64,000 bases of DNA from a virus, in IMG/VR virus record IMGVR_UViG_3300021197_001521, positions 1 through 64,000 of that record; one strand, written 5' to 3'. Numbering within the stretch: position 1 is the first letter of the stretch; each line of letters opens with the position of its first letter. Positions 46,478-62,652 of the stretch are shown here, in pieces. The position numbers and the translations under genes are program-made. The notes under the pieces are model-generated. The model was not told the DNA's origin. It ran no database searches and saw only the letters and a list, made by a program, of their open reading frames with translations.

Positions 46478-47167
46478 CTAGTTAGTGGATGCGGCGATGA
46501 TTGATTTTTGCCAGTTTATATGTTTAGAGTCGTTTGTAGACAAAGAGTTTTGTTGACCGTCTCTATATACCAACACAGTGTCTTTAAGGTTTTCAATCTT
46601 GCAACCTGCTTGCAGACATTTAGACCACAACATAAAGTCTTCTGAAATATGATCTGGAGATTCGTTGTAACCGCCTACTCCTAGTATCTTTTCTTTTTTA
46701 AACATTACTGTTGGATGATTTAGAAAATGGTCTCTATAGTAGAAGATGTTTGGCGGAATTTTTTCTGGCATTATTCTTGACACGACACCTGTAGACATTT
46801 GTGAGCATTGACCACCAAGTATATCCACATCACCTTCTTGCATTTTGCGCAATTGTTTTTCTAGTCTATCTGGTGTCATAATATCGTCCGAATCAAGTCT
46901 TGCCACCAAATCATACTTACAGACTTTTAAACCTGCATTGAGTGCTACCGACAAATTCTTTTTACCTTCTTGTCTTTCGCACTTTAGTACGGTTATCTTT
47001 TCATGGTCATTTAATTCATTCAGAAGCTCTATAAGCTCTGGTACGTCTGATTGATTGTCTATGATAACTATTTCAAAGTTTTGTTCTGTTTGATCTAGAA
47101 CGCTATCAATACATTGTCTCAAATGATTACGTGGCGTGTTATAAACTGGAATTAATACTGAGATCAT
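46478..47167 (-). CDS. Family 2 glycosyltransferase, GT-A fold (229 aa)
   Basis: Typical GT2 start (ISVLIPVYNTPRNHLRQCID, residues 2-21) followed by ILDQTEQNFEIVII-type strands, LNAGLKVCKYDLVARLD, and the metal and nucleotide-binding acidic motif LDSDD at residues 91-95. Later, HPTVMFKKEKILGVGGYNE and SEDFMLW (with ED as the usual catalytic-base region) complete the fold. The enzyme would transfer a sugar from a nucleotide donor. The start has AAGGAG 5 bases upstream and overlaps the fcl stop (ATGA). Donor and acceptor cannot be read from the sequence. Confidence 0.85.
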   Translation of the reverse strand: MISVLIPVYNTPRNHLRQCIDSVLDQTEQNFEIVIIDNQSDVPELIELLNELNDHEKITVLKCERQEGKKNLSVALNAGLKVCKYDLVARLDSDDIMTPDRLEKQLRKMQEGDVDILGGQCSQMSTGVVSRIMPEKIPPNIFYYRDHFLNHPTVMFKKEKILGVGGYNESPDHISEDFMLWSKCLQAGCKIENLKDTVLVYRDGQQNSLSTNDSKHINWQKSIIAASTN

Positions 47168-48102
47168 GATTGCTCCTTAAAGTTTTCGTCTTTTAGAAAC
47201 CATTCTATAGTTTCTTTTAGTCCTGTTTGTAAATCTGTTTCTGCTTTAAAACCTAGTCTTTCTTCTGCAAGTTTTGTATTTAGGCATCTTCTAGGTTGAC
47301 CGTCTGGTTTGGAAGTGTCGTATTTAATTGTTCCGGTGTATCCCATCTGACTGGATATTTCTTCTACCAGATCTCTAATTGATATCTCTTGACCTGTCCC
47401 AATATTGATTGGTTCTAATGGTACATTTTTTTCTATTGCACAGGCAACTGCTTTTGCGCAATCTGGTGCGTACAAAAACTCTCTAGTTGCTTTGCCAGAT
47501 CCCCATATAGTAACTTCTGATTCTCCGTTCTTCATAGCATTATAAAACTTTAGAATCAATGCTGGTATAACGTGACTACTAGTTAAATTAAAATGATCGT
47601 GAGGTCCATACATGTTTACTAAAAGTAAATTTGCGCCTCTCATGCCATACTGCTGCCCGTATAGCTCTAGCAATTTTCCTACCGCCTTTTTTGACACACC
47701 GTATCCAGCGTTCGTTTCTTCTGGATAACCATTCCATAGGTCGTTCTCATTAAACGGAACCGGAGAGTGCTTTGGATAAGAACACACCGTTCCTAGAAAA
47801 ATAAACTTTGGAACCATTTGTCTTCTCGCCGCTTCAACCATGTTAATTCCCATCATCAAGTTCTCGTACATGAACCTTCCGGGATTTTCTTTATTTGCTG
47901 CAATACCACCAACAGAACCAGCGGCATGTACAATCACGTCTGGATTGTAATACTCTACTGCTTTTATACATGCTCTATCTGATCTAAGGTCATAAACTTT
48001 TGATCCTATACCAGCAAAAGTATGATCTTTCAGATTTCGTGGCAGGTGTTTCATTAGGTTTTTTCCTAAGAAACCGCTTGCTCCAGTAACTAGAACTCTC
48101 AT
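47164..48102 (-). CDS. fcl: GDP-L-fucose synthase / GDP-colitose synthase-like epimerase-reductase (312 aa)
   Basis: An extended short-chain dehydrogenase with GASGFLG (residues 7-13). It carries the hallmark residues of GDP-4-keto-6-deoxymannose epimerase-reductases: Cys107 in GTVCSYP, Tyr134 and Lys138 in YGVSK, and His177 in SSHVIPAL, each two positions before the Escherichia coli Fcl numbers. It therefore should catalyse the 3,5-epimerisation and 4-reduction that yield GDP-L-fucose. In colitose pathways the ColC homologue makes GDP-L-colitose with C5 epimerisation only. The gene immediately follows a ColD-type dehydratase, which favours the colitose route. AAGGA ribosome site. Sequence alone does not separate the two products. 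Confidence 0.85.
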   Translation of the reverse strand: MRVLVTGASGFLGKNLMKHLPRNLKDHTFAGIGSKVYDLRSDRACIKAVEYYNPDVIVHAAGSVGGIAANKENPGRFMYENLMMGINMVEAARRQMVPKFIFLGTVCSYPKHSPVPFNENDLWNGYPEETNAGYGVSKKAVGKLLELYGQQYGMRGANLLLVNMYGPHDHFNLTSSHVIPALILKFYNAMKNGESEVTIWGSGKATREFLYAPDCAKAVACAIEKNVPLEPINIGTGQEISIRDLVEEISSQMGYTGTIKYDTSKPDGQPRRCLNTKLAEERLGFKAETDLQTGLKETIEWFLKDENFKEQS

Positions 48103-48103
48103 A

Positions 48104-49249
48104 TTATTCCTTATTTATAATGTCGCAAATTTTTTGAAGATCTTCTCTTGTTAGATCTTGATTATTGGGAACATAAAAACCAAACTTATCTACTAACTCA
48201 GAGTTTGGCATATTGTCAGATCTTCCTTTCCAAAACGGTTTGTTTGCCATAGAACCTGCTATTAGCGGTCTTGTCTCTACGCCATTGCTTATCAAATTTT
48301 GAACAACTTCGTCTCTGTTTTTTGTTACAACTGGATATGCAAAATTAGATACAAAACTTGTTATGGGGTTATCTAGACTCAACATGGTGTTTTTAATATT
48401 CTCCCAATAATACTGGAAGTTTTCTTCGCGCTTCGTAGCAAACAGGTCCAATTTATCTATTTGTGTAAGTCCTATATATGCTTGCAGGTCTGTTGCTCTA
48501 AGATTAAAACCGGGATAAAAGAAACTGTACAAGAAATCAAAATCAGATATTTGGTGTTTGTTTTTATATTCTGCCTGCTTTTGCTTAGACCAATCTCTAC
48601 CCCAACCGTGTGATCTCATAGAGTATATTAGATCACTAATCTCTTCGTCGCTAGTGCAAATAAGACCACCTTCAATAGTGGAAAGGTGATGGCCGTAAAA
48701 CAACGAAAACACAGAAACGTCACCAAATGTTCCAAGGTATTGGTCTTGATATTTAGAGCCCATAGACTCACAAACATCTTCTAGTATAATTATGTTATTG
48801 TCTTTGCATATTTCAACAATTTTTTCCATCTGAGGAACTAACCCAAGTACAGACACTAGTATTAATACAGAAGGGTTTTGCTCTCTGACTATTTTCTTAA
48901 AGTGATTTAGGTCTATAGAAAGATCGTGTAGATTGCAATCGCATAACTCTACATCCATTCCCAGCAACATGGGCGAACTTACGTCCGTTGCCCAACTTAA
49001 AGCGGGAGCAACTACTTTGTTGTTTCTAAGTCTCCCGCTCTCTTTTAGTGCTGCGAGCGCCAGAAGTATAGCAGAAGAACCAGAATTAACATAACATGTA
49101 TTATTAACGCCTATCTTGTCGCTCCACTTGTCCTCAAATTCTAACGTAACCTTATTTTTTGTTAGAATAGGGGTATCTTCTTGTGATAACCAAGCAACAA
49201 GTCTTTTAATGTCATCTTTATTGATAGTATCAGAAACAAGTTTTATCAT
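48104..49249 (-). CDS. colD: ColD-type PLP-dependent GDP-sugar 3-dehydratase (381 aa)
   Basis: DegT/DnrJ/EryC1-family fold: NSGSSAILLALAAL, VVAPALSWATDV, ILEDVCESMGSKY (with the Asp that contacts the PLP pyridine), then FSLFYGHHLSTIEGG. In aminotransferases of this family a Lys sits where the first His of GHH (residue 187) is found. That exchange is the mark of ColD, GDP-4-keto-6-deoxy-D-mannose 3-dehydratase, which removes the C3 hydroxyl. RSHGWGRDW and FNLRATDLQAYIGLTQI complete the family pattern. The start is set at ATG 49249 (GGA 7-9 bases upstream, ATGA overlap); an upstream TTG could add 4 residues. Next to fcl it points to colitose-like deoxysugar synthesis. Confidence 0.8.
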   Translation of the reverse strand: MIKLVSDTINKDDIKRLVAWLSQEDTPILTKNKVTLEFEDKWSDKIGVNNTCYVNSGSSAILLALAALKESGRLRNNKVVAPALSWATDVSSPMLLGMDVELCDCNLHDLSIDLNHFKKIVREQNPSVLILVSVLGLVPQMEKIVEICKDNNIIILEDVCESMGSKYQDQYLGTFGDVSVFSLFYGHHLSTIEGGLICTSDEEISDLIYSMRSHGWGRDWSKQKQAEYKNKHQISDFDFLYSFFYPGFNLRATDLQAYIGLTQIDKLDLFATKREENFQYYWENIKNTMLSLDNPITSFVSNFAYPVVTKNRDEVVQNLISNGVETRPLIAGSMANKPFWKGRSDNMPNSELVDKFGFYVPNNQDLTREDLQKICDIINKE

Positions 49250-49998
49250 ATCGTTGTCCAACTTTCAGGTACAATGTCTCCAGAGTATGTTCCATTCGCA
49301 AACCAGTTTTTAGGCGCAATAACCTTTTTATCAACATTATTGTTTAACCAAGCACCCCACCAACTAAATGATGAGTTTGCAATTATATTATGACTACAAA
49401 GAGACATAGAATATAGATCTATCGTGTTTGTTTGGTTTTCAGAAAAATACATATTGTTATATTTAAAGTTTTCTTTACACCATTTAATATCATCAGAAAA
49501 AACTAGTATATTTGTATCACTTTTTGTAATCAGATCAACTGCCTTGTTGTAATAATCTAAAGTTTGAGACGGATGAACGTGACTTGCTTTAAGATAATCG
49601 CCTCTCCTTACATGCAAAGACACCGTTTCGTCTTTAAGGAAAGGATAGGTGTTCATTATATGATACTTTGTTTTATCGTTAATTTCAAGTTCTTTTCTTA
49701 AAGTATCTTTATTTTTTTCAAAGTATTTTTCAGATTGCCAATATCCATTTAGGTAGCTATCATTAGGAATAGGTTGGTAGTGAAAATCGTCTTGAATTTC
49801 TTCAAAAACAAACAGGTGTTGCTCTAGGATTTTTGGTTTTAAATCAAAATCATACAGGGCAAACTTCCAACTACCTTTGTTCAGGAAGTAGGACGCTACA
49901 TAGTAGCATTCGGTGTTGTGAATCTTAGCTGCTGCCTGAGATGCTGCCCACTGAAATAATTGATTACCCATGCCTCCCATCAAGTTGCATGTTATCAT
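49246..49998 (-). CDS. Family 11 fucosyltransferase-type glycosyltransferase (250 aa)
   Basis: The N-terminus has GGMGNQLFQWAASQA (residues 8-22), the GT11 signature loop. Residues 127-134 read SLHVRRGD, the conserved basic motif that binds GDP-sugars in alpha-1,2- and alpha-1,6-fucosyltransferases. NSSFSWWGAWL near residue 209 is the third GT11 motif. The donor is a GDP-sugar of the fucose type. Because the two flanking genes make such donors (ColD and Fcl), the enzyme may transfer colitose or fucose. In Escherichia coli O55 a GT11-type enzyme occurs in a colitose-containing antigen cluster. Acceptor unknown. Confidence 0.85.
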   Translation of the reverse strand: MITCNLMGGMGNQLFQWAASQAAAKIHNTECYYVASYFLNKGSWKFALYDFDLKPKILEQHLFVFEEIQDDFHYQPIPNDSYLNGYWQSEKYFEKNKDTLRKELEINDKTKYHIMNTYPFLKDETVSLHVRRGDYLKASHVHPSQTLDYYNKAVDLITKSDTNILVFSDDIKWCKENFKYNNMYFSENQTNTIDLYSMSLCSHNIIANSSFSWWGAWLNNNVDKKVIAPKNWFANGTYSGDIVPESWTTI

Positions 49999-50876
49999 AT
50001 CGCCTCCTTAGTTTTTCTTAAAACATCAAGTCTACTTGCGCCCGAAAACGCTTCTTCAAAAGTTATAAGATTTTCTACATTTATTTCTTCGTTGTGAAAT
50101 ATGTTCATGTAGGCAGAGTATCTATGAAGCGCCCAACCAGCATAGAATCTAGCAACATTTTCGTGTCCGTTTTCATGAAAATTCATACCTGACCCTACGC
50201 CAGCAAAATGTAGGAATTTTTTACCGAAGTCATACCAAGTGTTCAGCAGTAAAAATCCATTATCATAACTTTCATTTTCATTAGAGCTTCCATAATCTTC
50301 TGTGTCTAGATAAAATATTTTTCCGTTGTTCATAAGAATATGAAAACTTACTGGATCAAAAAAATCTATAATTGGGATTCTATCTACAGGTTGACCTTGG
50401 CACATATTCTTTAGTGTGTCAAAATTAATTTCATCAGAAATTAAAGATTTATTCACCCCAATGAAGCATGTTCCTACAACGTCTGGCATAGGTCTGTGTA
50501 TAGAATAACTTCTACGTGGACCAACTAGATCGTAACCATCTTCTAGTTTATTCGTTATATCACTGAGGCATTCATCAATAAAAACAACATCGCTGTCAAT
50601 TTGAACTATGTAGTCGTAACCTTCTGAATACTCTCTTATGACTTTTGCCCAAACATAAGCAGTTCCGCTATGACCAGACTTATAGAGATGTTTTATATTT
50701 TCATCAGTTTCAATATTAATAAATTTATTGTTCTCATTACTTGGAATATCCAAGAAGTCTTCAGGTGTACCTATAATGTGAATCTTAACATCGTGAAATT
50801 TATGATAAGTTTCTATGCACTTGTTTGCTATCTTACCACAATTATATGCTATTACGAATACAAAAGTATCATCCAT
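49995..50876 (-). CDS. Putative GT-A glycosyltransferase (293 aa)
   Basis: The first strand TFVFVIAYNCG and a helix with CIETYHKFHDVKIHIIG are followed by an aspartate motif VQIDSDVVF at residues 92-99, the DxD metal and nucleotide-sugar site of GT-A enzymes. Then CFIGVNKSLI and a long C-terminal helical part with GSGMNFHENGHENVARFYAGW. Size and layout fit a family 2-like enzyme but no close family was recognised. AAGGG ribosome site, and the start overlaps the previous gene. Substrate unknown. Confidence 0.6.
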   Translation of the reverse strand: MDDTFVFVIAYNCGKIANKCIETYHKFHDVKIHIIGTPEDFLDIPSNENNKFINIETDENIKHLYKSGHSGTAYVWAKVIREYSEGYDYIVQIDSDVVFIDECLSDITNKLEDGYDLVGPRRSYSIHRPMPDVVGTCFIGVNKSLISDEINFDTLKNMCQGQPVDRIPIIDFFDPVSFHILMNNGKIFYLDTEDYGSSNENESYDNGFLLLNTWYDFGKKFLHFAGVGSGMNFHENGHENVARFYAGWALHRYSAYMNIFHNEEINVENLITFEEAFSGASRLDVLRKTKEAI

Positions 50877-51669
50877 TTATAGCCCTTTCAATAGTTTCCT
50901 TTAGCATTGGTTTTATATCATAATATTTTTTTGATCTTTCGTAATTATCTTCTATGGCTGTAATCATTTTTGAGTACGAGGACTCATCTAGCGAGTTGCA
51001 TTTATTTACAATATCTTTCGCTGAGTTTACAATAATAAATCCGTCTGTATTAAAAAAATCAGAGATGTTACTAGCGCCATAGAAAATTGGAACCGTCTTT
51101 GTTACTAAGCAGTCAATTAATTTCTCTGTAAAAAAATTATTTTGTCTTGTGTTTTCTATGCAAACCGAAAATTGAGAATCGAATAATGGTTCTTTTTTCT
51201 CTCCTATTTCTGGGTTATTGAATGGATTATTTGTTGCTCGTCCTCTGTTGCTAATGTAAAATGATTTTGGTATAGTAATTTTGTCTTGATTAAAATTTAA
51301 CTCATGCCTCATAGCGTGACCCTCTAGCATCAACTTGAATCCTGTTAAGTGAGATACGCTAAAGTTTTTAGGAGGATGTTGATAGTCTTTAACCCACGAT
51401 GTACCAAATGGAAACAAGTGTGCATTTGGAAGTTTTAGAAGTTTCTCGTCATAAGTCAATATTGCGTCGAACATATTTGCTCTAGGTAAAACGAACTGCA
51501 CTATGTTTAATAGAACGGAAGGTTCTCTGGTTAGCAATATATTGGTACAGTCTTCTTCATTTTTATAACCATTAAGATCTTTATCAATAAAAAGCTTTAT
51601 GGGTTTGTCGTGTTCAATAAGTAGATTTGGCCATTCGGGGTACATGCTTGAATTGACTGTTTGTAGCAT
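50869..51669 (-). CDS. Family 10-like fucosyltransferase (266 aa)
   Basis: The start is moved to ATG 51669, where GGAG lies 6 bases upstream; the TTG 12 bases further is weaker. The C-terminal half shows the GT10 alpha-1,3/4-fucosyltransferase pattern: FSVCIENTRQNNFFTEKLID (residues 167-186) followed by TKTVPIFYGASNISDFF and FIIVNSAKDIVNKC. The E-N-x...T-E-K-L part binds GDP-fucose and the last part positions the acceptor. An N-terminal helical region has VKDYQHPPKNFSVSHLTG. It is a second GDP-deoxysugar transferase in the same operon as the ColD/Fcl pair. Confidence 0.65.
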   Translation of the reverse strand: MLQTVNSSMYPEWPNLLIEHDKPIKLFIDKDLNGYKNEEDCTNILLTREPSVLLNIVQFVLPRANMFDAILTYDEKLLKLPNAHLFPFGTSWVKDYQHPPKNFSVSHLTGFKLMLEGHAMRHELNFNQDKITIPKSFYISNRGRATNNPFNNPEIGEKKEPLFDSQFSVCIENTRQNNFFTEKLIDCLVTKTVPIFYGASNISDFFNTDGFIIVNSAKDIVNKCNSLDESSYSKMITAIEDNYERSKKYYDIKPMLKETIERAING

Positions 51670-51670
51670 T

Positions 51671-52762
51671 TTATTCTCCAAGATAATTTCTCTTTGCTTT
51701 TAAAAATAATTTCTTTTCTATTTCAGACATGTAATTAAACGTATCTAACAGCGAGTGCATTTCCCACAGTTTGGGATTTTTGTGAATCATAACCTCATGA
51801 TGCAAGTGAAAAAGATCAACATCTATAGAGGGAAACTCCACAGGTTGAATTGCTTCAATTTTATCCCAAAAGAATTTATCTTCCGGTGAATAACCATAAA
51901 AGAATTCTGGATCATAACCACCAACTTCTATAAACAAGTCTTTACTAATAATAATAGAACCACCCGGAGCGCCAGTCTGAGGTATTTCTATACCATAAGA
52001 ATCTTGGTGGAGTTGATCGACATCTGATTTTTTTAGTTTTATAATAGCTTCTGTTAGTTCTTTTGATAAATTTAAAACCCTTCTATTTGAAAAAGTTTGC
52101 AATGCACCAACACTATACTCTTTCAGATTCAAGATAGTTTTTTCAAAGAAAGAGGTTTGAACTAAAATGTCTATGTCATGGAATAAATAATATTTAGCTT
52201 TGTTTGAATATTTGAACCCACAGTTATGAGCTAAAGATTTATTCATTAGTTTATTTTCAGACGGGATATGAATATAGTTTACTAGACCGCTTGCCTTTTC
52301 CTTGTGATTTGGTTTGTCGTTTTCTTCACACAGGGTGATGCAAATTTTTGCTCCAGAATTCTCTGCTGATTTTTTTAGATGTTCAATACACGGAATAACA
52401 AATTCATCTCTACCTCTAACTGGTAGTATCACGTTTATATCATATTCCTCTTGGTCTATCAAATCTATATAGCAGGTTTCTTTTATTTTTTCATAATCTA
52501 ACCTACCGCTAACATGTAACTGAGAAAATAACATTTTATTTGATGACCTTTGTAAATAATCTTCTTTGTTTTTTAATGATTTGATTGTTTTTGATATCGA
52601 GATTAACTTGGTATCGGAGTCAATTATATTTATTAATTCTCTATAGTATTTTTTTTCTGAATGACCTTTTGAGTTTCCTATTGCGTTTTGGCAGATTTCT
52701 TTTATTTGATTTCTGATTACAATGTCTTCTTTTTTATCACTTTCTTTAAAATATAAAAACAT
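51671..52762 (-). CDS. GT-A glycosyltransferase with C-terminal galactosyltransferase-like domain (363 aa)
   Basis: Residues 1-105 form a helical extension with no known domain. From residue 108 comes a GT-A fold: INVILPVRGRDEFVIPCIEH, LAHNCGFKYSNKAKYYLFHD with DID at 196-198, and APGGSIIISKDLFIEVGGYD followed by FFYGYSPEDKFFWD (residues 285-300), matching the Glyco_transf_7C (PF02709) pattern seen in galactosyl- and GalNAc-transferases. The ED pair in SPED is the likely catalytic base. It overlaps its neighbour's stop (TAATG). Substrate unknown. Confidence 0.7.
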   Translation of the reverse strand: MFLYFKESDKKEDIVIRNQIKEICQNAIGNSKGHSEKKYYRELINIIDSDTKLISISKTIKSLKNKEDYLQRSSNKMLFSQLHVSGRLDYEKIKETCYIDLIDQEEYDINVILPVRGRDEFVIPCIEHLKKSAENSGAKICITLCEENDKPNHKEKASGLVNYIHIPSENKLMNKSLAHNCGFKYSNKAKYYLFHDIDILVQTSFFEKTILNLKEYSVGALQTFSNRRVLNLSKELTEAIIKLKKSDVDQLHQDSYGIEIPQTGAPGGSIIISKDLFIEVGGYDPEFFYGYSPEDKFFWDKIEAIQPVEFPSIDVDLFHLHHEVMIHKNPKLWEMHSLLDTFNYMSEIEKKLFLKAKRNYLGE

Positions 52763-53514
52763 TAAAATTCCACCTCTTTAAAAGAAGGTCTGCTGCAACA
52801 TATTCTATGAACTTTTTCTTGTTCTGCCCCTTCAGTTCTGAACTCACAGGTTGGATTTAAATTGTTGTAAATATAAAGAACTTTATCGTTGTATTTGACT
52901 TTATCCCAACCAGCGATGTCCATAAGAGAAAATACCTGAGCGCAGTCGTAAGCCATTGTAAACCATCTTCCATCATCGTACTTCATTGAGCTTAGTTCTG
53001 GATCTTGGTTCTTAATTTCGTGGAATAGTTTTGCTTTAAAACTTCTAAGGTGAGATACCCACAATGGCATTTGTCTTTTCAGCTCAAAGTGGTACTTACT
53101 AGGAAACGGTTTAGCATTACCTTCTTTTCCGTCTACATATCTTGCTTGACCGTACATCATCAAGCAATTTTCTCTATTGTAAAAACTATTAATATATGAC
53201 AGAACAAATTCGTCTACAAACCAATCATCTCCATCTAGTTGAACAACGATGTCTTCTGGGTCACAATCTTCGTTGATAGCTTTTTGATGATTATAAGTGG
53301 CGTATTTTCGTTCATCTGTTTTAGTGTAAATAATTTTATCTGGATATTTTTCTATATACTCTTGGCAGATGTCATCTGAATCATCAGAAGAATCATCGTT
53401 TACTAATAACACTTTAAAATTTTTATGAGTTTGACCAAAAATGCTGTCTAAACTCTTTCGTAGATATTCTCCAGCATTTCTAAAACTTACTAATATCTTA
53501 AAATTATTTTCCAT
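52762..53514 (-). CDS. Family 2 glycosyltransferase (250 aa)
   Basis: The start is set at ATG 53514, preceded at 6 bases by GGAG. GT-A pattern with KILVSFRNAGEYLRKSLDSI, VLLVNDDSSDDS, VVQLDGDDWF (acidic DGDD at about 94-97), and a C-terminal stretch SSMKYDDGRWFTMAYDCAQ, where the conserved acidic residues lie. The last 20 residues contain two adjacent Cys. It would add a sugar to a growing chain. It overlaps the gene before it by 11 bases and ends in a TAATG overlap with the next. Confidence 0.8.
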   Translation of the reverse strand: MENNFKILVSFRNAGEYLRKSLDSIFGQTHKNFKVLLVNDDSSDDSDDICQEYIEKYPDKIIYTKTDERKYATYNHQKAINEDCDPEDIVVQLDGDDWFVDEFVLSYINSFYNRENCLMMYGQARYVDGKEGNAKPFPSKYHFELKRQMPLWVSHLRSFKAKLFHEIKNQDPELSSMKYDDGRWFTMAYDCAQVFSLMDIAGWDKVKYNDKVLYIYNNLNPTCEFRTEGAEQEKVHRICCSRPSFKEVEF

Positions 53515-54391
53515 TAGATTCTCCAAATCTTTTTATTATGTCTTGCGCCTTGTCTTGATATCCCGCATCTATCATTAATTGACAAACTCTATGTATGCAT
53601 GTATGGTTAGACTCAATCTCTTGTTTAATTTTTTCAATAGAGACTTCTTGTTGATCCTCAGAGAATAGAGCTTTTAAAACTTTTATAAAGTCTTCATTTT
53701 GATCTTCGCGAGGTTTGACGGAAACTTTTTCGCATCTCAGCATACAGTCAAAGAAAATCTGAGAGCAAACAAATTGAATATCTCCGACTAGCGTAACTTC
53801 TCTGTAATTTCTCGCGAGAGATGCTAGATTGTTTATATTGCACTCTAGATCGAATTGGGAGTGTAAGTCTACACCAAAAATCATCCTATGATACTTCTCA
53901 TTATTACTGCATATCTTTTCAAATTCTTCGCTGGTTTCAGTTGAAATAATGCAATTATCTATTTTGTAGTCTAGCATGGGTGGTGGATTTAGAAATACAT
54001 CAATTCCGGGCATAATACAAGAGAATTTTATGTCCTTGCTCTTGTTGTTTACTAGAAAACCATATCCTTCTGAAAAGAACAGTGAGCAATTTACACCCAA
54101 CTCTTTGATCTGACCCTCCAAGTAGTCTATTATTGTTTGATTGCATCTGCTGCAATTAACTACTAGGTTTATGTTTTTATTCTCTGATAGATATTTTAAC
54201 AAAACAGGGTCTAGAATTTTAGCGTTTGCTATTACTAGGTCCGGTTTAAATCCGTCTAAACAGTCGTATACACTTTCTTGATTTACATTCCATAACTTTA
54301 CTTCTACGGAATCTACCATAGACAAGCACTGGTGAACGTAGAAGTTTTGGGTTGACAAAATATCGTTGTAGTTTTGTATAAGTACTCTCAT
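53504..54391 (-). CDS. Unknown glycan-operon protein, possible GT-B-like (295 aa)
   Basis: A Rossmann-like alternation is visible: MRVLIQNYNDIL, KPDLVIANAKIL, INLVVNCSRC, KFSCIMPGIDVFLN, DNCIISTETSEEF, YREVTLVGDIQFVCSQI. Strand three has an odd Cys pair (NCSRC). No donor-site signature is present, and the final 60 residues are helical and charged. It may be an unusual GT-B half or a partner protein. It overlaps both neighbours and so belongs to the operon. Confidence 0.5.
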   Translation of the reverse strand: MRVLIQNYNDILSTQNFYVHQCLSMVDSVEVKLWNVNQESVYDCLDGFKPDLVIANAKILDPVLLKYLSENKNINLVVNCSRCNQTIIDYLEGQIKELGVNCSLFFSEGYGFLVNNKSKDIKFSCIMPGIDVFLNPPPMLDYKIDNCIISTETSEEFEKICSNNEKYHRMIFGVDLHSQFDLECNINNLASLARNYREVTLVGDIQFVCSQIFFDCMLRCEKVSVKPREDQNEDFIKVLKALFSEDQQEVSIEKIKQEIESNHTCIHRVCQLMIDAGYQDKAQDIIKRFGESNGK

Positions 54392-55131: not shown

Positions 55132-55132
55132 A

Positions 55133-55870
55133 TTATTTTACTTTAACGAAATAATAAAGATTGCGGTTTTTTGACTCAACGATTAACTGTTTTGTCATCT
55201 TGTCATAATCATTATACTCAGGATATGAACTATTTACAACTCTTTTCATTATTATAGAACCATTTTTTGGCAATTCAAAAATCGCAGCGTTCTTCATTTG
55301 ATTGTTTGTGAGGTCATCTATCATCAAAAAGACATCGGAAGGAATTTGTGCATCATGTTCTAGTTTTACAAAATAACTTGCTTTTATCAATTTTTTAAAT
55401 GCTTCAAACTCTTCTTCTTTCTTATCTTTTTTAAAATGAAAATCTACATAGCAATGCCGAAACTTTTGCTTGAGATCATATAGTGCTGAGACGATTTCTT
55501 CTGCTTTGCCTTGGTTTTTACTAGATATAACAATTTTTATTTTGTCTTTGGGATAATCTATTTCTTTTAATTTTTTAATTGTTTCTAGTATTTTGGTATC
55601 ATCATCTTCGGAATCAAATACAGCGATTCCAAAAAGAGGCATAACGTGATTTCTCGCAATATCCAAAGCGTCTTCTTCTTTAGAGAACTGCCAACTTTCT
55701 AATCTTTTTAGGTTACATATCCCATGAATTTTATGAGGATTGTCGGTTATAATTTTATCAGAAAACGCATCAAGTCTTCCTGCGCTGCATTTATTAGAAT
55801 TAGTGTAGAAAATACAATCTTTGCAAGAAGTAGTAGTGGCAGGTTTATTTTCTTCTTGCTGTGATTTCAT
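55133..55870 (-). CDS. Cys-rich N-terminus plus GT-A-like protein (245 aa)
   Basis: Residues 16-55 carry CKDCIFYTNSNKCSAGR and, after about 20 residues, GICNLKR: four Cys that could hold a metal ion. From residue about 78, a GT-A-like alternation follows: MPLFGIAVFDSED, KIKIVISSKNQG, and SYFVKLEHDAQIPSDVFLMI, where an EHDAQ stretch stands in the position of the usual DxD. Such a Cys module joined to a transferase-like part is unusual to me. It overlaps the gene before it by 26 bases. Confidence 0.5.
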   Translation of the reverse strand: MKSQQEENKPATTTSCKDCIFYTNSNKCSAGRLDAFSDKIITDNPHKIHGICNLKRLESWQFSKEEDALDIARNHVMPLFGIAVFDSEDDDTKILETIKKLKEIDYPKDKIKIVISSKNQGKAEEIVSALYDLKQKFRHCYVDFHFKKDKKEEEFEAFKKLIKASYFVKLEHDAQIPSDVFLMIDDLTNNQMKNAAIFELPKNGSIIMKRVVNSSYPEYNDYDKMTKQLIVESKNRNLYYFVKVK

Positions 55871-56261
55871 AGTTAAGTCCAGACATGGTTGATCGTTCTA
55901 TTTGTAGTCCATTTTTTTGAAAGAATTGCTTGACTAAATCTACATCTAGCATACACTTGGACTGTAAAATTAAAGTATTCATTGTAGGTTGAGGTATCAA
56001 ACCATTAAGAACACCCTTACAAAAGAGTCTTGGGTCTATACCACTAACTGTGAGTGTTCCGTTTAGTCTAAGTTTATTAATTAGCAGTCCAAGAAAATCG
56101 AATACGTTTTCCTGACTAAAAAGACTTATTGTGTCTGACGCTAATATTTCTTCGCATTGATTATCTGTTACCTCTTCTGACAAAATATTTAGGTCGCTAA
56201 GGAGGAATGTTTCATAACCCTTTATGGCAGTCCTATCGTCAGTTACTATTTGTAGTTTCAT
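55845..56261 (-). CDS. Short methyltransferase-like protein lacking the SAM-binding loop (138 aa)
   Basis: The layout resembles the C-terminal half of a class I methyltransferase: NQCEEILASDTISLF, then FDFLGLLINKLRLNGTLTVSG (the strand after the core, with a polar turn), SKCMLDVDLVKQFFQKNGLQ, and a last strand LNYEITARRK. No GxGxG motif is present at the N-terminus, so SAM binding is not visible. It could be a truncated relative or a structural cousin. Good AAGGGG ribosome site. Confidence 0.45.
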   Translation of the reverse strand: MKLQIVTDDRTAIKGYETFLLSDLNILSEEVTDNQCEEILASDTISLFSQENVFDFLGLLINKLRLNGTLTVSGIDPRLFCKGVLNGLIPQPTMNTLILQSKCMLDVDLVKQFFQKNGLQIERSTMSGLNYEITARRK

Positions 56262-57233
56262 TTATATCCCCTTGTAAGCTCTATCAAAAACGTTATTCCA
56301 TTTAGTTATAAATTCTTGCTCTGAGAATTTTTCTTCTATAGTTTTTCTTGCCTCCGCACCCATTTTAGCAGCAAGCGGTTTGTCTTCAAGTAATTGCTCG
56401 CAGTAAGATCTAAGATCTTCTTCGTCGTTAGAAATAAATCCATTAACGCCATGTTCGATAAAGTCAGGTATTGCACAAGTCTCTGTTGTGACAATAGCAC
56501 AACCGCAAGACATTGCTTCTAACATAGACGTAGGAACTGGACTCAAAACGCTTGGGTTTATATAAACTAGAGCATTTTGGTATGCTTTGATTAAATGTTC
56601 CACAGATTCACTTTGACTAGAAAGACCTTCTGTTTCCCCTACAACTACCCTGTCTAAACCTTTTGTAATTCTTTCCCAACCTTGATAGTTCAGCGCATAG
56701 TCTCTTTTTATGAAATCATGAGCAACCGTCAGGATCTTACTCCTATCTGCACCATCGTCCGGTTTAAAGATGTTGGTATCTACGGAATGCTCAATTACAT
56801 CGCCGTCCATACCCCATTTTCCTTTAGAGTAATTTGTTATAAAAATATTATAATCACCCCTCATTGATAGAAACTGATTTAGGGTTTCTTGAGGCCACTG
56901 TGGTATAGGAAGCGTATGCTCCAAGGATATCAAAGGTATCTGTAATGTGTCATTTATTTTTTGTGCAACTTGATATTGACCGAATTTACTATGCGAAAGT
57001 ATCATGTCAAAGACTATATTTGGAACATTATTTTTACCTAGTTGGTAGCAGTTTTCCGGCATTTTTCCATGACCTTCATACCAATCTTTTCCTTCTTCAT
57101 GGTTAAATGAATAGAAGTTATGACCCGTTTTTGCCAGTTGAGTTTGGTATCTTTCATGGGCATTGAAGGTTAGTATGTTGTACTTTGTTTTATTTCTGTT
57201 TGCTTTGTCTATAATGCTGATTTGCCTACGCAT
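56262..57233 (-). CDS. Family 4-type GT-B glycosyltransferase (323 aa)
   Basis: A GGAGG ribosome site lies 7 bases before the ATG. The N-terminal Rossmann domain includes NILTFNAHERYQTQL and DMILSHSKFGQYQVA. The C-terminal donor-binding domain includes ILTVAHDFIKRDYALNY, VYINPSVLSPVPTSMLEAMS with the E-A-M-x-x-G region at 239-244, CAIVTTETCAIPDFI, and HGVNGFI. The Glu of MLEAMSCG is the usual nucleotide-sugar contact. Retaining GT4 enzymes are typical of polysaccharide synthesis. It overlaps the next gene by 8 bases. Substrate unknown. Confidence 0.85.
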   Translation of the reverse strand: MRRQISIIDKANRNKTKYNILTFNAHERYQTQLAKTGHNFYSFNHEEGKDWYEGHGKMPENCYQLGKNNVPNIVFDMILSHSKFGQYQVAQKINDTLQIPLISLEHTLPIPQWPQETLNQFLSMRGDYNIFITNYSKGKWGMDGDVIEHSVDTNIFKPDDGADRSKILTVAHDFIKRDYALNYQGWERITKGLDRVVVGETEGLSSQSESVEHLIKAYQNALVYINPSVLSPVPTSMLEAMSCGCAIVTTETCAIPDFIEHGVNGFISNDEEDLRSYCEQLLEDKPLAAKMGAEARKTIEEKFSEQEFITKWNNVFDRAYKGI

Positions 57234-58317
57234 TTAACACCTCCTTTACAGTGTTTCCAAAGGACTCTTGAGAAAATTTTTCTGCTTTTTCTAGTCCCTG
57301 TTTTCTTCTTTCAATATGAATCATAGGATCTTTCAACCAGTCGTCATACAATTGTCTCATCGTTTGTCTCATTCCCATCTCGCAAGGATTGAAAACGAAA
57401 TTCTTTGCGTTATATACGTCTTTCCACATTGAGTCTGATCTTTCTATTGTCTTGTATACAGATTTGACTACCGCCTCATCTGCATACTCTGCCGCATCTG
57501 TTCCTTCTAGCACTACAGGAACGCTTCCTAAGCACAATGCGTCGAATACACTTGAAGGGAGGCATCTTTGATTAGAAGGCGTTACGAAGCAATCTCCGTA
57601 TTGATGAAGTTGATAAATTGATTCAGGGTTTTGACCTCTTTGTACAACCATGTCTAGCAAGCAATCGCTTAGGTCTTCTTGATTACTAATTTTTTTCTTC
57701 AGTTCATGTTTTTTTATGTCTAATGATTGCTGCGTTTCCCCGCCTACTAACTGTAGTATTAGTGCAGTGTTATCGCCCTTGTCGAATTCTGAATGAAAAC
57801 ATCTGAGAATAGTTTCTGTTTGATCGTCATAGGCATCTACCACGGTATAAAACTTAAATTTACCCGTAAGCTCTGGCACTTGAATTTCTTTATAATTTTT
57901 TGTATAAAGACTTTTATCAAAGCAGTGCGGCACTACAACAGTTTTATCTTTTATTTTTTTAGGCATCGAATCTTTCGCTATTTCGCTGGCAACCCAAATC
58001 TGATCTAATTGATTTAGTTGTTCTGCCCAACTAGAATGATCTAATGTTACAAATTCATTTCCAAATATTGCAATATTTTTTTCAAATTTATCTGTTCCTA
58101 CTAGATGTTCTGGAAACACATGTTGAATACAGACATCACAATCGTCCAAGGATTTATCTTCTAGGTGACTTATTTCTTTGGGTGTCTGATTGCCAGAAAA
58201 CGAAATTGCCCTACATACAACATCAAAACCTGCTTTATCAAGCGCTAAAATATTATTGGTGGCATATCTACCCCAATCGCTCGCTTCTCTGTAATATCCA
58301 ATATACAATACCTTCAT
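57226..58317 (-). CDS. GT-B glycosyltransferase, family 4-like (363 aa)
   Basis: The first strand and loop MKVLYIGYYREASDWGRYAT are followed by the first Rossmann domain with CDVCIQHVFPEHLVG and NIAIFGNEFVTLDHSSWAEQ. The C-terminal domain shows FYTVVDAYDDQTETILRCF, YGDCFVTPSNQRCLPSSVFD, and ALCLGSVPVVLEGTDAAEY, the GT4 donor-site layout, with D in place of the usual E of the EAM region. A GGGAG ribosome site lies 6 bases upstream. It is a likely transferase of a hexose or deoxyhexose; donor not known. Confidence 0.75.
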   Translation of the reverse strand: MKVLYIGYYREASDWGRYATNNILALDKAGFDVVCRAISFSGNQTPKEISHLEDKSLDDCDVCIQHVFPEHLVGTDKFEKNIAIFGNEFVTLDHSSWAEQLNQLDQIWVASEIAKDSMPKKIKDKTVVVPHCFDKSLYTKNYKEIQVPELTGKFKFYTVVDAYDDQTETILRCFHSEFDKGDNTALILQLVGGETQQSLDIKKHELKKKISNQEDLSDCLLDMVVQRGQNPESIYQLHQYGDCFVTPSNQRCLPSSVFDALCLGSVPVVLEGTDAAEYADEAVVKSVYKTIERSDSMWKDVYNAKNFVFNPCEMGMRQTMRQLYDDWLKDPMIHIERRKQGLEKAEKFSQESFGNTVKEVLNA

Positions 58318-58331
58318 TAGGCTCTCCCGAC

Positions 58332-59207
58332 TTATAAATGAATAATTTTATTTGTGTCAAAAAAATGGTTCAATACATCTGGTTTTTTCTGGTTTAAAAT
58401 CCAGTCAATATCTTCTCTGTCTATCTCTTCTTTTCTATTGTCTCTTGAGTAAGTGTTTACGGAATTATTTTTCATTCTATAAGATAGAATTGTTTCTCCA
58501 TTGTATAAACAGGTCGCAGGACATCCAATCCAAGTTTCGTGATTATTTACAATAAAAAAGTTAGCAGAACATTTTAAATGAGTAGAAACCCCACCAGCGT
58601 TTCCTAAACAAACAACACAGTTTGAAAGCATAAAATACGAAAGCATTTCACTGTATGTGGTAGTCGATACTTCTTCGTAATTATCACTAAAACTAAGGTT
58701 GGGTTTTTCTATCGTCAAATTAATAACATATGCATCGTTCTGTAAAATTTTTGCTATATAATCTTCAAGCAAATTATTTCTAAATCCCGTTATAGGATTG
58801 TTGATATTTCTAGCGCTTATAACTACTATAGGTTTATCTATTTTTTCTAGTTTGTTCTTTATTAAAGTATAGTCGTGTTCTAAAGGTTTATTTGTTCCAA
58901 ACCCCTTCTCTTGAATCGTTTTATTTATATATGTAAAATTTCTTTTGTAAACATGTGTCTTGTCTTCATCAAAGTCTGCTCTATATGTAACGTTATTATT
59001 ATCATACCAACTTCGTAAATGATTACAAGATGAATTGTTCTTGCCGTCTATTAAGATTTTATCAAACGACTCAAATAAAACTAAAAAGTTATATCCTGCA
59101 TAAGTATAATACTCTTCGTCTATTTTTCTGTTGTGTGATAAAAAATTATTGCTTATGTCGCAGTAATTAAACTCGTCATATGAATACGGAAGCGAAATCT
59201 TATTCAT
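58332..59207 (-). CDS. Putative GT-B-like glycan protein of unknown family (291 aa)
   Basis: The C-terminal half has a Rossmann-like start PIVVISARNINN followed by a polar loop ITGFRNN, then YVINLTIEKPNLSF, and a typical donor-site helix NCVVCLGNAGGVSTHLKCSA and NFFIVNNHETWIG. The N-terminal half is less clear and rich in Asn and Tyr. The pattern resembles GT-B enzymes that use a G-x-x-G-G helix, but no family is identified. The start has only a weak ribosome site and overlaps the DUF5672-like gene. Acceptor and donor unknown. Confidence 0.5.
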   Translation of the reverse strand: MNKISLPYSYDEFNYCDISNNFLSHNRKIDEEYYTYAGYNFLVLFESFDKILIDGKNNSSCNHLRSWYDNNNVTYRADFDEDKTHVYKRNFTYINKTIQEKGFGTNKPLEHDYTLIKNKLEKIDKPIVVISARNINNPITGFRNNLLEDYIAKILQNDAYVINLTIEKPNLSFSDNYEEVSTTTYSEMLSYFMLSNCVVCLGNAGGVSTHLKCSANFFIVNNHETWIGCPATCLYNGETILSYRMKNNSVNTYSRDNRKEEIDREDIDWILNQKKPDVLNHFFDTNKIIHL

Positions 59208-59967
59208 TTTTTAATGGATAGTTTAAAATAAAACTCATCCCCCCTGAATTAAACTCTCCATGAAAACCGAAAGACTCATAACTTATTAGCATGTTTCTTG
59301 CAAAATATCTATACGGCGTTGGGTGTTCTACAGAAAACTGTGCTGCTAACTCAGGCGGGGCAAATCTTATACCTGCTTGTGTCATTCTGTCATAGTTAAA
59401 TACGCATATGTTTAAGTCTTCATTCTTATGTTCCCACCCAAGTTTGGCAGACTCTTCTACAAATTTTCTAGTTCGCAAAGAGAATCCACCATTACCCACA
59501 ACATTTGGAATATTATCTATTCTTCCAGCAACCATGTCCGTTGCTTGGATTATATGCATGGGCCAAGGCGCGCCTATGTAGTCGTAGTCTAAATACTGGT
59601 CTGTCCACTTATTACTATCTATAATAGTAGAATCATGCTGAACATTCAAGCAAAAATCATCTGTAATGTATTTATTTGTTTGTTGAACAAAAGATTCACA
59701 GAAACCTATTCTGTTTTCATCATCGTTTTGTAGGTTGTCATTAAGGTCTACTTTCATGTCGTAGACTTCTATGTTATTCTTGTTGATGATTTTTTCAAAC
59801 AAAGACAACTGAGTTTTACTACTATCTGTAATTAAGACACTACGCTTAAAATCTACCTGATCCATAGCAATCAACATAGATCTAAGAGATTTTTCTACAT
59901 GTTCTGTACCCCAGCAAAATGTAAATACTGTTACGTCTGGTAGTTGTAACTTATTTCCAATAGTCAT
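59200..59967 (-). CDS. DUF5672-type putative glycosyltransferase (255 aa)
   Basis: Matches the DUF5672 pattern: VTVFTFCWGTEHVEKSLRSM near the start, NVQHDSTIID near 108-117 (where a catalytic or metal-binding His/Asp would lie), DYIGAPWPMH at about 129-138, NVVGNGGFSLRTRKF at 155-169, NEDLNICVF, and GIRFAPPELAAQFSVEH near 199-215. Proteins of this family are usually found with sugar-transfer genes and are thought to be GT-A-fold enzymes. AAGGG ribosome site 5 bases upstream. Exact reaction unknown. Confidence 0.75.
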   Translation of the reverse strand: MTIGNKLQLPDVTVFTFCWGTEHVEKSLRSMLIAMDQVDFKRSVLITDSSKTQLSLFEKIINKNNIEVYDMKVDLNDNLQNDDENRIGFCESFVQQTNKYITDDFCLNVQHDSTIIDSNKWTDQYLDYDYIGAPWPMHIIQATDMVAGRIDNIPNVVGNGGFSLRTRKFVEESAKLGWEHKNEDLNICVFNYDRMTQAGIRFAPPELAAQFSVEHPTPYRYFARNMLISYESFGFHGEFNSGGMSFILNYPLKNE

Positions 59968-60970
59968 AAATACCCTTCGTTGTTTCGTAATCCATTACCT
60001 TTTGTTCGCGTTTAGGTTGGGTCATCGCCCACCTGAACATCTCATCAATTGTTTCCTCTAGGTTGGTGTCGTCGCTAAAGCCTAACATTTCTTTTGCTTT
60101 TGCGTGATCGCAATGCGCATGTTTAACTTCGTGCCGACCTTCTACATGTTTTTTATCTGCTTGAAAACCATTTTTTAAAGCTACACGCTGCACTGTATCT
60201 GCCAGTTGGTTTATTGAGTATGCTTTGTCTGCTCCAATGTTAAAAATTTCTTTATCGTGACTATCAATCAGTTTTTCAAAAGGTTCCATGTAGTATTTGA
60301 TATCAGAGAACGCGCGAGTCTGCTCTCCGTCTCCGTAGATTAACATAGGTTCGCCAGCAAGTATACGTCTAATAAAAATACCTACAACGTTACGATATTT
60401 ATCCCAAATGTTTTGGTATATACCTACGACATTGTGTGGACGAACAATATTATAACGAAGACCGTGTTGATCGTGTGCAACCTTTAGGTCCATCTCTACG
60501 GTATATTTTGCAATACCATATGGATCAATTGGCACTGGTCCCATCGTTTCTGTAAATGGAGGATGATGATTACCGTAAACTGCCATAGAACTGGTAAAGA
60601 TCATTTTTACGTCATGATTGATACACGCATTGATTAGGTTAACACTTGCTAAAACATTATTTGTATAATTATAATGTCTGATAAATGGCGACAACCCTTC
60701 TGCTGCATAAGCAGCAAAATGATAACACGCTACAATGTCACGGTTAGGGTCAGCAAAAATATGCTCTAATGCCCTTGGAGTCCCTTCGCTTTTACTGAGG
60801 TGTAGCGGCCAAAACTCAAACTGCTCTAACGTGGTTTCTTTGGGAAGATAATCTTCATAACTGCCGCTAAGATCATCAATACCTATAACCTTGTAACCCT
60901 TTTTGATTAGGTGACGAGTTAGGTGCGAACCAAGCAGTCCTGCGCATCCAGTTATCACAACTTCTTTCAT
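59951..60970 (-). CDS. NAD-dependent sugar epimerase/dehydratase (339 aa)
   Basis: Extended SDR fold: GCAGLLG at residues 8-14 (NAD-binding), MIFTSSMAVYG at 123-133 with the catalytic Ser, and YGIAK at 151-155 (Tyr and Lys). Later NIVRPHNVVG and YGDGEQTRAFSDIKYYMEPF fit UDP-hexose 4-epimerases and similar enzymes (GalE/RfbB group). It supplies an activated sugar, but whether UDP-, GDP- or dTDP-linked cannot be read. The last 35 residues resemble a helix that follows the catalytic core. The start overlaps the GT4 gene before it. Confidence 0.85.
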   Translation of the reverse strand: MKEVVITGCAGLLGSHLTRHLIKKGYKVIGIDDLSGSYEDYLPKETTLEQFEFWPLHLSKSEGTPRALEHIFADPNRDIVACYHFAAYAAEGLSPFIRHYNYTNNVLASVNLINACINHDVKMIFTSSMAVYGNHHPPFTETMGPVPIDPYGIAKYTVEMDLKVAHDQHGLRYNIVRPHNVVGIYQNIWDKYRNVVGIFIRRILAGEPMLIYGDGEQTRAFSDIKYYMEPFEKLIDSHDKEIFNIGADKAYSINQLADTVQRVALKNGFQADKKHVEGRHEVKHAHCDHAKAKEMLGFSDDTNLEETIDEMFRWAMTQPKREQKVMDYETTKGIYDYWK

Positions 60971-62652
60971 TTAGACATCCCCTGCACCTGTTGCATTCTT
61001 TGTATTCTAGCTCTTTCCCATTGATTTCTTCTTTCGCATAGCATCTTCATCTGATCGTATGCTACATCAAAATTAAAAGGTTGCCTAGAATGAACGCCAT
61101 CAAATGCAGCAGAAGATTCGTTAAAGTACATACCGCCCGTTGAGGACGTTGCTTGTTTGTAGGTCAAGTCCCTTGTTAACCTAGACTCCATAAAAGTGCC
61201 TAGTTTATCAGGTTCTCTTAAAACATTTGTTATCAACCATCTTGACAGGTCGCTAGGTTTAATGTTATTGTTAGAAACATCCAACTTTTGATCTGATTCA
61301 ATTACCCTTGGACCTGACCCCCAACTTTGTTCAAGTGGAATTGGATCTGTTTGATCAAAGTAGTTCTCCCATACAGAACCACTTAAATGCCACTGATAAT
61401 ATTTTTCAAAGTTTTCTCTGGTTTGCTTGCCTTCTGCTTCTCTTTCTTCGTCTGATTTGCTGAAAAAATCCAAGAAATAGTTAGCAGCTTCTTGATTGTC
61501 TGGAACCGCACGTAAACATCCAGTTTCTAATTCTTTGTACAAAGCCGCTGGCTTAATGGGGTATCCGCCTAACTTCCTTAAAACACTTTCCATAGCAGAA
61601 TAATCTGTTCCGCAGACGGGAACCCCACAAGCCGCAGCTTCTACTTGAGGTAGTCCAAACCCTTCACAGTTTGCATACTGGGCGTACAGGTCAAACAAGT
61701 TCACCACGTTAGACAAATCTTCGTAACTTAGTCCATTTTTAACATTTGAAAGAGTTGCTCCCCACCTTCCTGTGTACGGAGATTGACATATCGCCCCTTT
61801 GAATGTAGAGGGAAATGGTTTTTTTGTTTCTGGACATATGTAAGTAAATAAAACGTTTGAAGACAGTTTATATTCTTGTATTAGTTCTGGAATCTCCCAA
61901 CCTAAATCTGGATAGGAGGTATGGCAGTACAGATAATACTTTTTGTTTTCTGACATATCCAAGAATTTACGGAAAGCTTCAAACAAATCTGGATACAACT
62001 TGCGTCTTTGGTTACGCATTACTGTTCCAATAATTTTGTACTCTGGATCTAAACCAAAGTTGAGTTTGTGCATACGCTTGTCTTCTACTGGACTGTAGGC
62101 AGGGTGCGCAGACGGAGGCGCGCTTCCAAGGTAATTTATTTTACCTCCAGATTGATTTTCTAATACGCCGCCCGCCCAGTCTGAATAAGTAAGACAGGCA
62201 TCTGCTCCTGCGTAAGTAGCAATCCACTGTCTTGCTTGAGGTCTTGCGTCTACCGTTGGCATTACCACCCATTTAAAAAACGGTCTAAACGGAGATCTTT
62301 CTGCAAAGTCTAGCATCCAGAAATCTCGAATGTCACACACAAAGTCTGGCAAAAAATCTAAGCAGACATGCTCAAACGCCCATTCTCCAAACTGATTTGT
62401 GGGTCTAGAGTTGTATGCTTCCAGTTCTTCTGGGGATGCTTTTGGTTCACAGTTTTGGTTAGGCATTACTCCGTAAAACTTCCAAGGAATGTTCGCTGCC
62501 CTTGGATCATTCTTTTCTCCGTATGCTGCCATCTCAGCAATTTCATACTTGCCAGTGCTGTGCAAATAGTTTAAAATCTCTCTAGTATAAGTTGCATACC
62601 CTGTGTTTAGAAAGGTAGCTTCACTGCAAAACAGAATTCTTTTCTTTCTCAT
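60967..62652 (-). CDS. Large GT-B (family 4) glycosyltransferase with C-terminal extension (561 aa)
   Basis: The N-terminal Rossmann domain starts ILFCSEATFLNTGYATYTRE with the G-x-x-x-Y-T loop. The C-terminal domain has YKIIGTVMRNQRRKLYPDL (residues 205-223) and NCEGFGLPQVEAAACGVPVC (328-347), the classical E-x-F-G-L-P-x-x-E-A region of GT4. About 100 further residues form a helical tail unlike the usual family length. It is the first glycan gene after the SSB. AAGGA ribosome site 5 bases before the ATG. Donor unknown. Confidence 0.85.
   Translation of the reverse strand: MRKKRILFCSEATFLNTGYATYTREILNYLHSTGKYEIAEMAAYGEKNDPRAANIPWKFYGVMPNQNCEPKASPEELEAYNSRPTNQFGEWAFEHVCLDFLPDFVCDIRDFWMLDFAERSPFRPFFKWVVMPTVDARPQARQWIATYAGADACLTYSDWAGGVLENQSGGKINYLGSAPPSAHPAYSPVEDKRMHKLNFGLDPEYKIIGTVMRNQRRKLYPDLFEAFRKFLDMSENKKYYLYCHTSYPDLGWEIPELIQEYKLSSNVLFTYICPETKKPFPSTFKGAICQSPYTGRWGATLSNVKNGLSYEDLSNVVNLFDLYAQYANCEGFGLPQVEAAACGVPVCGTDYSAMESVLRKLGGYPIKPAALYKELETGCLRAVPDNQEAANYFLDFFSKSDEEREAEGKQTRENFEKYYQWHLSGSVWENYFDQTDPIPLEQSWGSGPRVIESDQKLDVSNNNIKPSDLSRWLITNVLREPDKLGTFMESRLTRDLTYKQATSSTGGMYFNESSAAFDGVHSRQPFNFDVAYDQMKMLCERRNQWERARIQRMQQVQGMSK

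Follow-up and report, generated by a model that had tools for sequence, protein, structure and literature searches.

Bacterial O-antigen loci, among them colitose loci with ColD, ColC and GT11, have constant borders and an exchangeable centre. Here we describe a phage locus that likewise has fixed borders and a swapped centre, as well as a ColD-type dehydratase and a GT11 gene, but in which neither a flippase nor an initiating transferase nor any clear membrane protein was detected. It lies at 46478-62652 (- strand) in a window of 64,000 nucleotides, positions 1 to 64,000 of IMG/VR record IMGVR_UViG_3300021197_001521, itself an 84,235-base fragment of a viral genome. Among viruses, the chloroviruses (PBCV-1/NY-2A) use mostly soluble, early-expressed glycosyltransferases (GTs) without signal peptides, encode GMD and GMER for GDP-fucose, and decorate a conserved core glycan in a virus-specific manner (PMC9614988). 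The phage locus would share the plan of core plus variable decoration, and chlorovirus B736L is the nearest solved fold to its first GT, GT561; however, chloroviruses are eukaryotic giant viruses, whereas the present genes belong to a tailed phage (it has a terminase), form one operon and have low sequence identity, and their glycan and its acceptor are predicted. Multi-gene sugar clusters and GT-rich islands are an already known kind of locus in marine phages. Cyanophage S-SCSM1 has a 13-gene sugar cluster, and the S-SCSM1 and ACG-2014f clusters resemble ours in combining Gmd/Fcl or epimerases with several GTs and fucosyltransferases (PMC9602691) and, in ACG-2014f, a ColD-type His enzyme; these are T4-like phages of cyanobacteria, however, and the genes GT561 and NTP247 of our locus are unmatched in phage records. 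The host recognition cluster (HRC) of pelagimyophages is also hypervariable and GT-rich (PMC7029224), but lies between VrlC and gp14 in a structural module with tail fibres, whereas the present locus, in its relatives too, lies in a replication operon between SSB and an HNH nuclease. Moraphages, aquatic jumbo phages, have four core GTs (PMC12619734); the accessible part of that account gives a PolB-type polymerase and describes no exchangeable cassette, and on that portion membership of this group is disfavoured, the polymerase here being DnaE-type. An earlier note on this DNA had been aware of no phage system described with exactly these genes, which holds for the exact set but not for multi-gene sugar clusters, which were already published (PMC9602691, PMC7029224). 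In the literature searched, which included few subscription journals, we found no account of conserved sugar genes framing a centre that is exchanged as a block, within the replication operon of a phage lineage with a DnaE-type polymerase, and no ColD-type enzyme recognised as such in phages. The conserved frame with its exchangeable cassette, and the ColD-type enzyme within that cassette, neither of which the earlier note had noticed, look new.

The locus is an unbroken run of 18 genes (Table 1), and the conserved unit reaches past 46478 to g150. Across its 17 junctions there are 13 overlaps, three spacings within 1 nt and one gap of 14 nt. The earlier note had thus placed the operon correctly, on the right strand and with its genes overlapping in one direction, but had counted 16 of them. 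Its view that nearly all are sugar-related is borne out, as sequence or fold supports a GT or sugar-nucleotide enzyme for about 15 of the 18. Taking matches above the gathering score as full Pfam support, the GT2, GT4, GT10, GT11 and DUF5672 families that it named are sound, and such matches also cover the Fcl-type epimerase (47164), the DegT gene (48104) and the GalE-like gene (59951); some GT E-values are weak and fall below the curated cut-offs, and the GT7-like assignment is one of these (a PHROG galactosyltransferase match to this protein has E=1e-3). The exceptions among the 18 genes are g138, g295 and g291, which have no convincing family match: profile searches with g295 returned nothing significant, and the best match of the g138 profile in the PDB, to a methyltransferase (E=0.03), is faint and not significant. 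Pfam and PHROG profile searches likewise gave no family match for g150.

Table 1. Features of the sugar-gene locus and its borders, in order of transcription. Occurrence refers to 18 non-redundant relatives.
Feature	Coordinates	Strand	Supporting match	Occurrence and identity in relatives
Putative promoter, TTGACT-N17-TATAAT, upstream of SSB	63006..63034	-	11/12 consensus match	
SSB, 106 aa, first gene of transcription unit	62654..62974	-	PF00436 E=5.5e-8	
GT561, GT4-like glycosyltransferase, GT-B fold, phage-specific; frame	60967..62652	-	PF00534 E=4.5e-9	18/18, 68-81%
GalE-like NAD-dependent sugar-nucleotide epimerase	59951..60970	-	PF01370 E=8e-40; closest in PDB UDP-glucose 4-epimerase, E=1e-36	Close orthologues at about 66-82% in a subset
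DUF5672 protein; accessory, paired with GalE	59200..59967	-	PF18922 E=1.3e-16	6/18, 77-82%, near GalE
g291, GC 29%; this phage only	58332..59207	-	No family match	0/18
g363, GT-B glycosyltransferase-like; frame	57226..58317	-	Glycogen synthase in PDB profile comparison, E=1.6e-4	18/18
GT4 glycosyltransferase; frame	56262..57233	-	PF00534 E=8e-16	18/18, 49-70%
g138, small conserved protein; frame	55845..56261	-		16/18
g245, GT-A-fold protein; frame	55133..55870	-	Predicted fold only	18/18
NTP247, sugar-phosphate nucleotidyltransferase-like; frame	54388..55131	-	NCBIfam nucleotidyltransferase models E=5e-8	18/18, 39-58%
g295, conserved protein; frame, left cassette border	53504..54391	-		18/18, 27-37%
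GT2c glycosyltransferase; variable	52762..53526	-	PF00535 E=5e-17	0/18
GT2/GT7-like glycosyltransferase (GT7); variable	51671..52762	-	PF10111 E=8e-6, below cut-off	0/18
GT10 fucosyltransferase-like; variable	50869..51681	-	PF00852 E=1e-7; PDB FucT E=4e-8	1/18
GT2b glycosyltransferase-like; variable	49995..50876	-	PF00535 E=3e-4, below cut-off	0/18
GT11 fucosyltransferase-like; variable	49246..49998	-	PF01531 E=6.5e-29	0/18 full-span relatives
ColD-type pyridoxal phosphate (PLP) 3-dehydratase; variable	48104..49261	-	PDB ColD 2gms E=4e-54	Distant DegT in 1/18
Fcl, GDP-L-fucose-synthase-like; frame, right cassette border	47164..48102	-	PDB GDP-fucose synthase E=6e-62	16/18, 51-71%
GT2a glycosyltransferase; accessory, this phage	46478..47167	-	PF00535 E=2e-28	2/18, distant
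g150, small conserved protein; frame, right end of locus	46017..46469	-		18/18, 28-43%
HNH/homing-type endonuclease; flank	45260..46039	-	PHROG 559 E=3e-10	18/18
Conserved protein, annealing/ssDNA-binding-like by resemblance only; flank	44499..45263	-		16/18, 54-91%

A nine-gene frame (GT561, g363, GT4, g138, g245, NTP247, g295 ... Fcl, g150) encloses a cassette that is swapped as a block. Presence was counted in 18 non-redundant relatives whose contigs span the region; all records compared are metagenomic contigs, many of them partial, with open reading frames called mechanically in the relatives, and the IMG/VR scans kept 80 loci of 189 stretches with GT561 and 32 loci for the annealing-like gene. 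In a fixed order, GT561, g363, GT4, g245, NTP247, g295 and g150 were present in all 18 relatives and g138 and Fcl in 16, whereas the six genes between g295 and Fcl (GT2c, GT7, GT10, GT2b, GT11 and ColD) were each found in none or one of them. This interval holds 5 to 14 genes in the relatives, varying by phage, and overall the cassettes gave 290 non-redundant proteins in 120 clusters, many small or singletons; the most frequent Pfam families include GT2, epimerases, DegT, FdtA, FkbM methyltransferases, UDP-GlcNAc 2-epimerases and cytidylyltransferases. Other GT11 genes are present in two of the cassettes (L022 and L043). Exchange is clearest between 3300036985_006427 and 3300042502_001710, in which the flanking genes are 88-98% identical and the genes between them largely unrelated (one pair at 53%); a second close pair of relatives shows partial cassette exchange. 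A chance cluster or a chimera is ruled out, because the flanks and about half of the genes are syntenic in the 18 relatives. One might still see a loose genomic island, in which independently gained GT and sugar genes do mixed, partly unrelated jobs and make no single product: GC falls to 33% in mid-locus, compared with 38-39% at the locus borders and in the late genes, and the many small or singleton cassette clusters would fit as well. Such an island would not be expected to keep nine core genes in strict order, to have its genes overlap all along its length or to swap blocks between borders that stay fixed, and we consider it unlikely. The earlier note had read the assembly of a branched glycan from the locus, and a multi-step, probably branched, glycan assembly is in our view well supported.

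Few proteins of the region are as conserved as GT561, encoded by the first gene of the frame (median identity 74%, compared with 65% for SSB and 60% for HNH). It occurs in 189 IMG/VR stretches and, among binned genomes, in three contigs only; neither GT561 nor NTP247 had any match in 50,697 phage records. An AlphaFold2 (AF2) model of GT561 (predicted local distance difference test score, pLDDT, 79) had the chlorovirus GT B736L (3oy2) as its top match among solved structures. The C-terminal part of the protein (residues about 440-561) lies outside the GT4 match and has conserved residues R491, R494, D495, G506-Y509, N511 and E512. The g363 profile also matched B736L in the PDB (E=2e-3) and a PHROG glycosyltransferase (E=4e-5). 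For g245 the AF2 model (pLDDT 90) had GT-A enzymes as best Foldseek matches (E about 1e-6, TM about 0.5), and four cysteines, at 16, 19, 28 and 52, are invariant.

The earlier note had counted three sugar-nucleotide enzymes, which we recover as Fcl, a DegT-family protein and the GalE-like protein; an aminotransferase reading of the DegT gene, however, is rejected, as the catalytic position holds His and not Lys. In this protein (gene at 48,104) FYGHH aligns to FYSHH of ColD 2gms, where His191 replaces the aminotransferase Lys; other ColD entries differ at the His of FYSHH in the alignment. The PDB ranking agrees, with ColD at E=4e-54 compared with 3e-33 for a CDP-sugar dehydrase and 5e-31 for perosamine synthetase. 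The catalytic His is kept in phage ColD homologues at 52-59% identity, each with an Fcl-like gene beside it, and in two phages of 160-254 kb (L010 and L011, 6,800-11,200) GT2, GT11, GT10, Fcl and ColD are adjacent: the same five gene types in another order. As the DegT protein is a ColD-type 3-dehydratase with its catalytic His, colitose or another 3-deoxy sugar is the probable product of the cassette. A literature search combining phage and GDP-colitose found no paper on the subject. In cyanophage ACG-2014f, a gene annotated as an aminotransferase (L145:8968-10161) also has the ColD catalytic His (FGHHMTTIEGG), so its product is probably a dehydratase; homologues occur in 54 Synechococcus phage records, the His having been examined in ACG-2014f alone.

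Fcl, a short-chain dehydrogenase/reductase (SDR), matched the NCBIfam model GDPFucSynFcl (E=3e-82), under the equivalog cut-off (276 vs 500 bits). It keeps the Cys, Y..K and SHVIPAL motifs, which hold the catalytic Cys, Tyr-x3-Lys and His of GDP-fucose synthases, with Thr at the catalytic Ser position. Since relatives without ColD also keep Fcl, making GDP-fucose is probably its basic job, with ColD as an add-on in the present phage. In the nearest relative, whose DnaE is 96% identical, a gene for a Gmd-like protein of 359 aa lies 1.6 kb upstream of the terminase gene, a position that would lie to the left of the start of the present record. With Gmd in relatives and Fcl conserved, the lineage probably converts GDP-mannose to GDP-fucose, and the present phage would probably also reach a 3-deoxy product.

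Kyte-Doolittle maxima over 19 residues were at most 1.31 for the locus proteins except ColD (1.72) and g363 (1.69), in each of which a single hydrophobic segment falls within the match to a soluble enzyme. There was thus no clear membrane segment by this measure among the locus proteins, which Gtr serotype conversion (GtrA, Gtr(type)) would require. The polyprenol-phosphate initiating transferase (PF02397) and the flippase Wzx (PF01943) were found in none of 16 records of the lineage, with positive controls in 9/14 and 13/14 genomes. Membership of a Wzx/Wzy O-antigen or capsule cluster or of a Gtr cassette is rejected, this machinery being missing. Because no clear membrane segment, initiating transferase or flippase was found, stepwise transfer in the cytosol is indicated, and the locus appears to encode soluble viral GTs without lipid-carrier machinery, as in chloroviruses.

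We propose that the locus glycosylates the virion, in a chlorovirus-like way with a conserved core, a variable decoration and soluble assembly; this is the best reading of the data, and one on which we are evenly balanced. Gmd, as seen in relatives, and Fcl would make GDP-L-fucose, and ColD would draw off the 4-keto-6-deoxy intermediate common to both routes and turn it into a 3-deoxy sugar; with reduction by Fcl or a host enzyme, the product would probably be GDP-colitose. On a conserved acceptor, for which a virion protein of the phage is the likeliest candidate, the soluble core GTs would build a core oligosaccharide that is likewise conserved, and to this the cassette GTs (GT2, GT10, GT11) would attach a phage-specific, branched decoration containing fucose or colitose; the working mode would be that of chlorovirus capsid glycosylation, with outer sugars that vary as in O-antigen loci. 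The conservation of GT561, exceeding that of SSB and HNH, would suit a phage-encoded, conserved acceptor with variable outer sugars.

Another possibility is that the enzymes remodel the host surface by extending or capping lipid-linked O-antigen, capsule or lipopolysaccharide (LPS) core, which would block superinfection or help release, the cassette tracking host surface types. Published work on pelagimyophages and cyanophages reads their GT-rich islands in this way (PMC7029224, PMC9602691). It draws further support from the position of the locus in an early operon, from a cassette gene content like that of O-antigen clusters and from the match to ColD, an enzyme of the E. coli colitose O-antigen. 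However, the initiating transferase and flippase were absent from all 16 records and clear membrane proteins from the locus, a frame kept across a diverse lineage would be unexpected for a host-specific acceptor, and one close pair has had its cassette replaced while its adjacent tail proteins are still 72-94% identical. We therefore regard host-surface remodelling as possible but on balance doubtful. The earlier note had offered both glycosylated virions and an altered host surface, and both remain live; the lack of lipid-carrier and flippase genes and the conserved, phage-specific GT favour virions without proving the case.

Several points weigh against virion glycosylation. The glycan, its acceptor and all enzyme activities are predictions from genes. 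The enzymes could draw on lipid carriers and flippases of the host, so that missing Wzx and initiating genes are compatible with work on the host surface, and the early operon position fits host modification equally. The B736L match indicates a shared GT-B fold only, because identity is 14%. Although the nearest relative and most related records have Gmd, none was seen in the present 84-kb fragment, and it is assumed both that the ColD substrate is a GDP (not CDP) sugar and that Fcl is able to make colitose.

The sugar genes directly follow SSB on the same strand, inside the early/replication transcription unit, with the HNH nuclease downstream. This unit runs leftward from the right end of the record through a ribonucleotide reductase (RNR) fragment, PhoH, UvsX, DnaB, primase, deoxynucleoside monophosphate (dNMP) kinase, exonuclease, a two-part DnaE polymerase and SSB. 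Such a setting, with a dNMP kinase, could suggest that the GTs glycosylate modified bases of the phage DNA, T4-like or hypermodified, and hypermodification of DNA by phage GTs is known (Pyle et al. 2024, as cited in PMC12619734). The thymidylate synthase/hydroxymethylase fold (PF00303), however, is absent from 15 of 16 records, including this fragment, there was no Tet_JBP match (the control for Tet_JBP was itself silent), and a dozen GTs with a swappable cassette far exceed the needs of base glucosylation. We consider this explanation very improbable.

The DnaE polymerase (record 63,035-66,921) is encoded by two genes, of 556 and about 529 aa, that flank an exonuclease-subunit gene; relatives, too, have a C-terminal gene of about 520 aa. 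Further into the replication region (record 66,990-69,450; L001:2990-5450) lie sulfotransferase-like, GT8-like and phosphoribosyltransferase-like genes, the products of the latter two having a common Cys-rich N-terminal motif; homologues of all three are grouped in L142:12,430-14,803. Beyond 46,478, the operon continues with g150, the HNH nuclease, the conserved annealing-protein-like gene, whose product had no family match in profile searches, and a small gene. A hairpin at 44,140-44,166 separates it from the converging, rightward late operon (0 to 44.1 kb), which encodes tail and giant structural proteins; a nucleotide search with the late genes gave no match among isolates. At 9575-31713 of the window are giant structural proteins of 1,991 and 5,387 aa, of which the nearest relative keeps the larger at about 42% and the smaller in patches.

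The SSB start was placed at the ATG at 62974 and not at the TTG at 63034: a ribosome-binding site and ATG are read directly in the sequence, and the resulting 106-aa protein fits the relatives. Conservation of the sigma-70 promoter of Table 1 in relatives was not confirmed (at most two mismatches in 8/59, compared with 6% in shuffles). A CTA(A/T)(A/T)AT motif (window 62,990-63,034) is present upstream of SSB in 39/60 relatives compared with 2.3% in shuffles, the pattern having been picked post hoc, after inspection. It lies mostly 26-29 nt before SSB and is possibly a phage-specific early promoter; distant relatives have GTTTTTT...GCTAATATAnTAAGAT at this site.

Some observations touch on the host. 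Two tandem DUF1501 proteins with Tat-like signals are encoded next to a PAP2 phosphatase (record 71,071-73,574; L001:7071-9574) and occur in about 35 related loci; the second had no match in 50,697 phage records. One Verrucomicrobiales metagenome-assembled genome (MAG) had 119 DUF1501 matches, a suggestive, possible host clue, and no other genome of 59 in its phylum had a DUF1501 match at E 1e-120 or better. Two contigs of a SAR202 MAG (L138 and L139) carry the phage locus and look viral; misbinned phage is suggested, because contigs 7 and 13 hold every DUF1501 match of that MAG.

The usual practice is to list phage GT genes singly as auxiliary host-LPS genes, whereas the comparison of relatives made here splits, across a broad lineage, a frame from a cassette. 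The target of glycosylation and the cause of its variation thereby become testable, as the frame predicts a common core and acceptor and the cassette predicts differences in outer sugars between sister phages. Some phage 'DegT aminotransferases', in the present phage and ACG-2014f, are probably deoxygenating enzymes, as judged by the ColD catalytic His. We tentatively suggest, at somewhat short of even confidence, that this is a lineage of uncultivated tailed phages with its own serotype-like glycan system, in which a conserved, phage-specific core oligosaccharide on the virion would carry outer sugars switched by recombination of a cassette within fixed borders, here including a colitose-type 3,6-dideoxy sugar. 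If true, bacterial viruses would have their own counterpart of chlorovirus capsid glycans and a phage equivalent of O-antigen switching.

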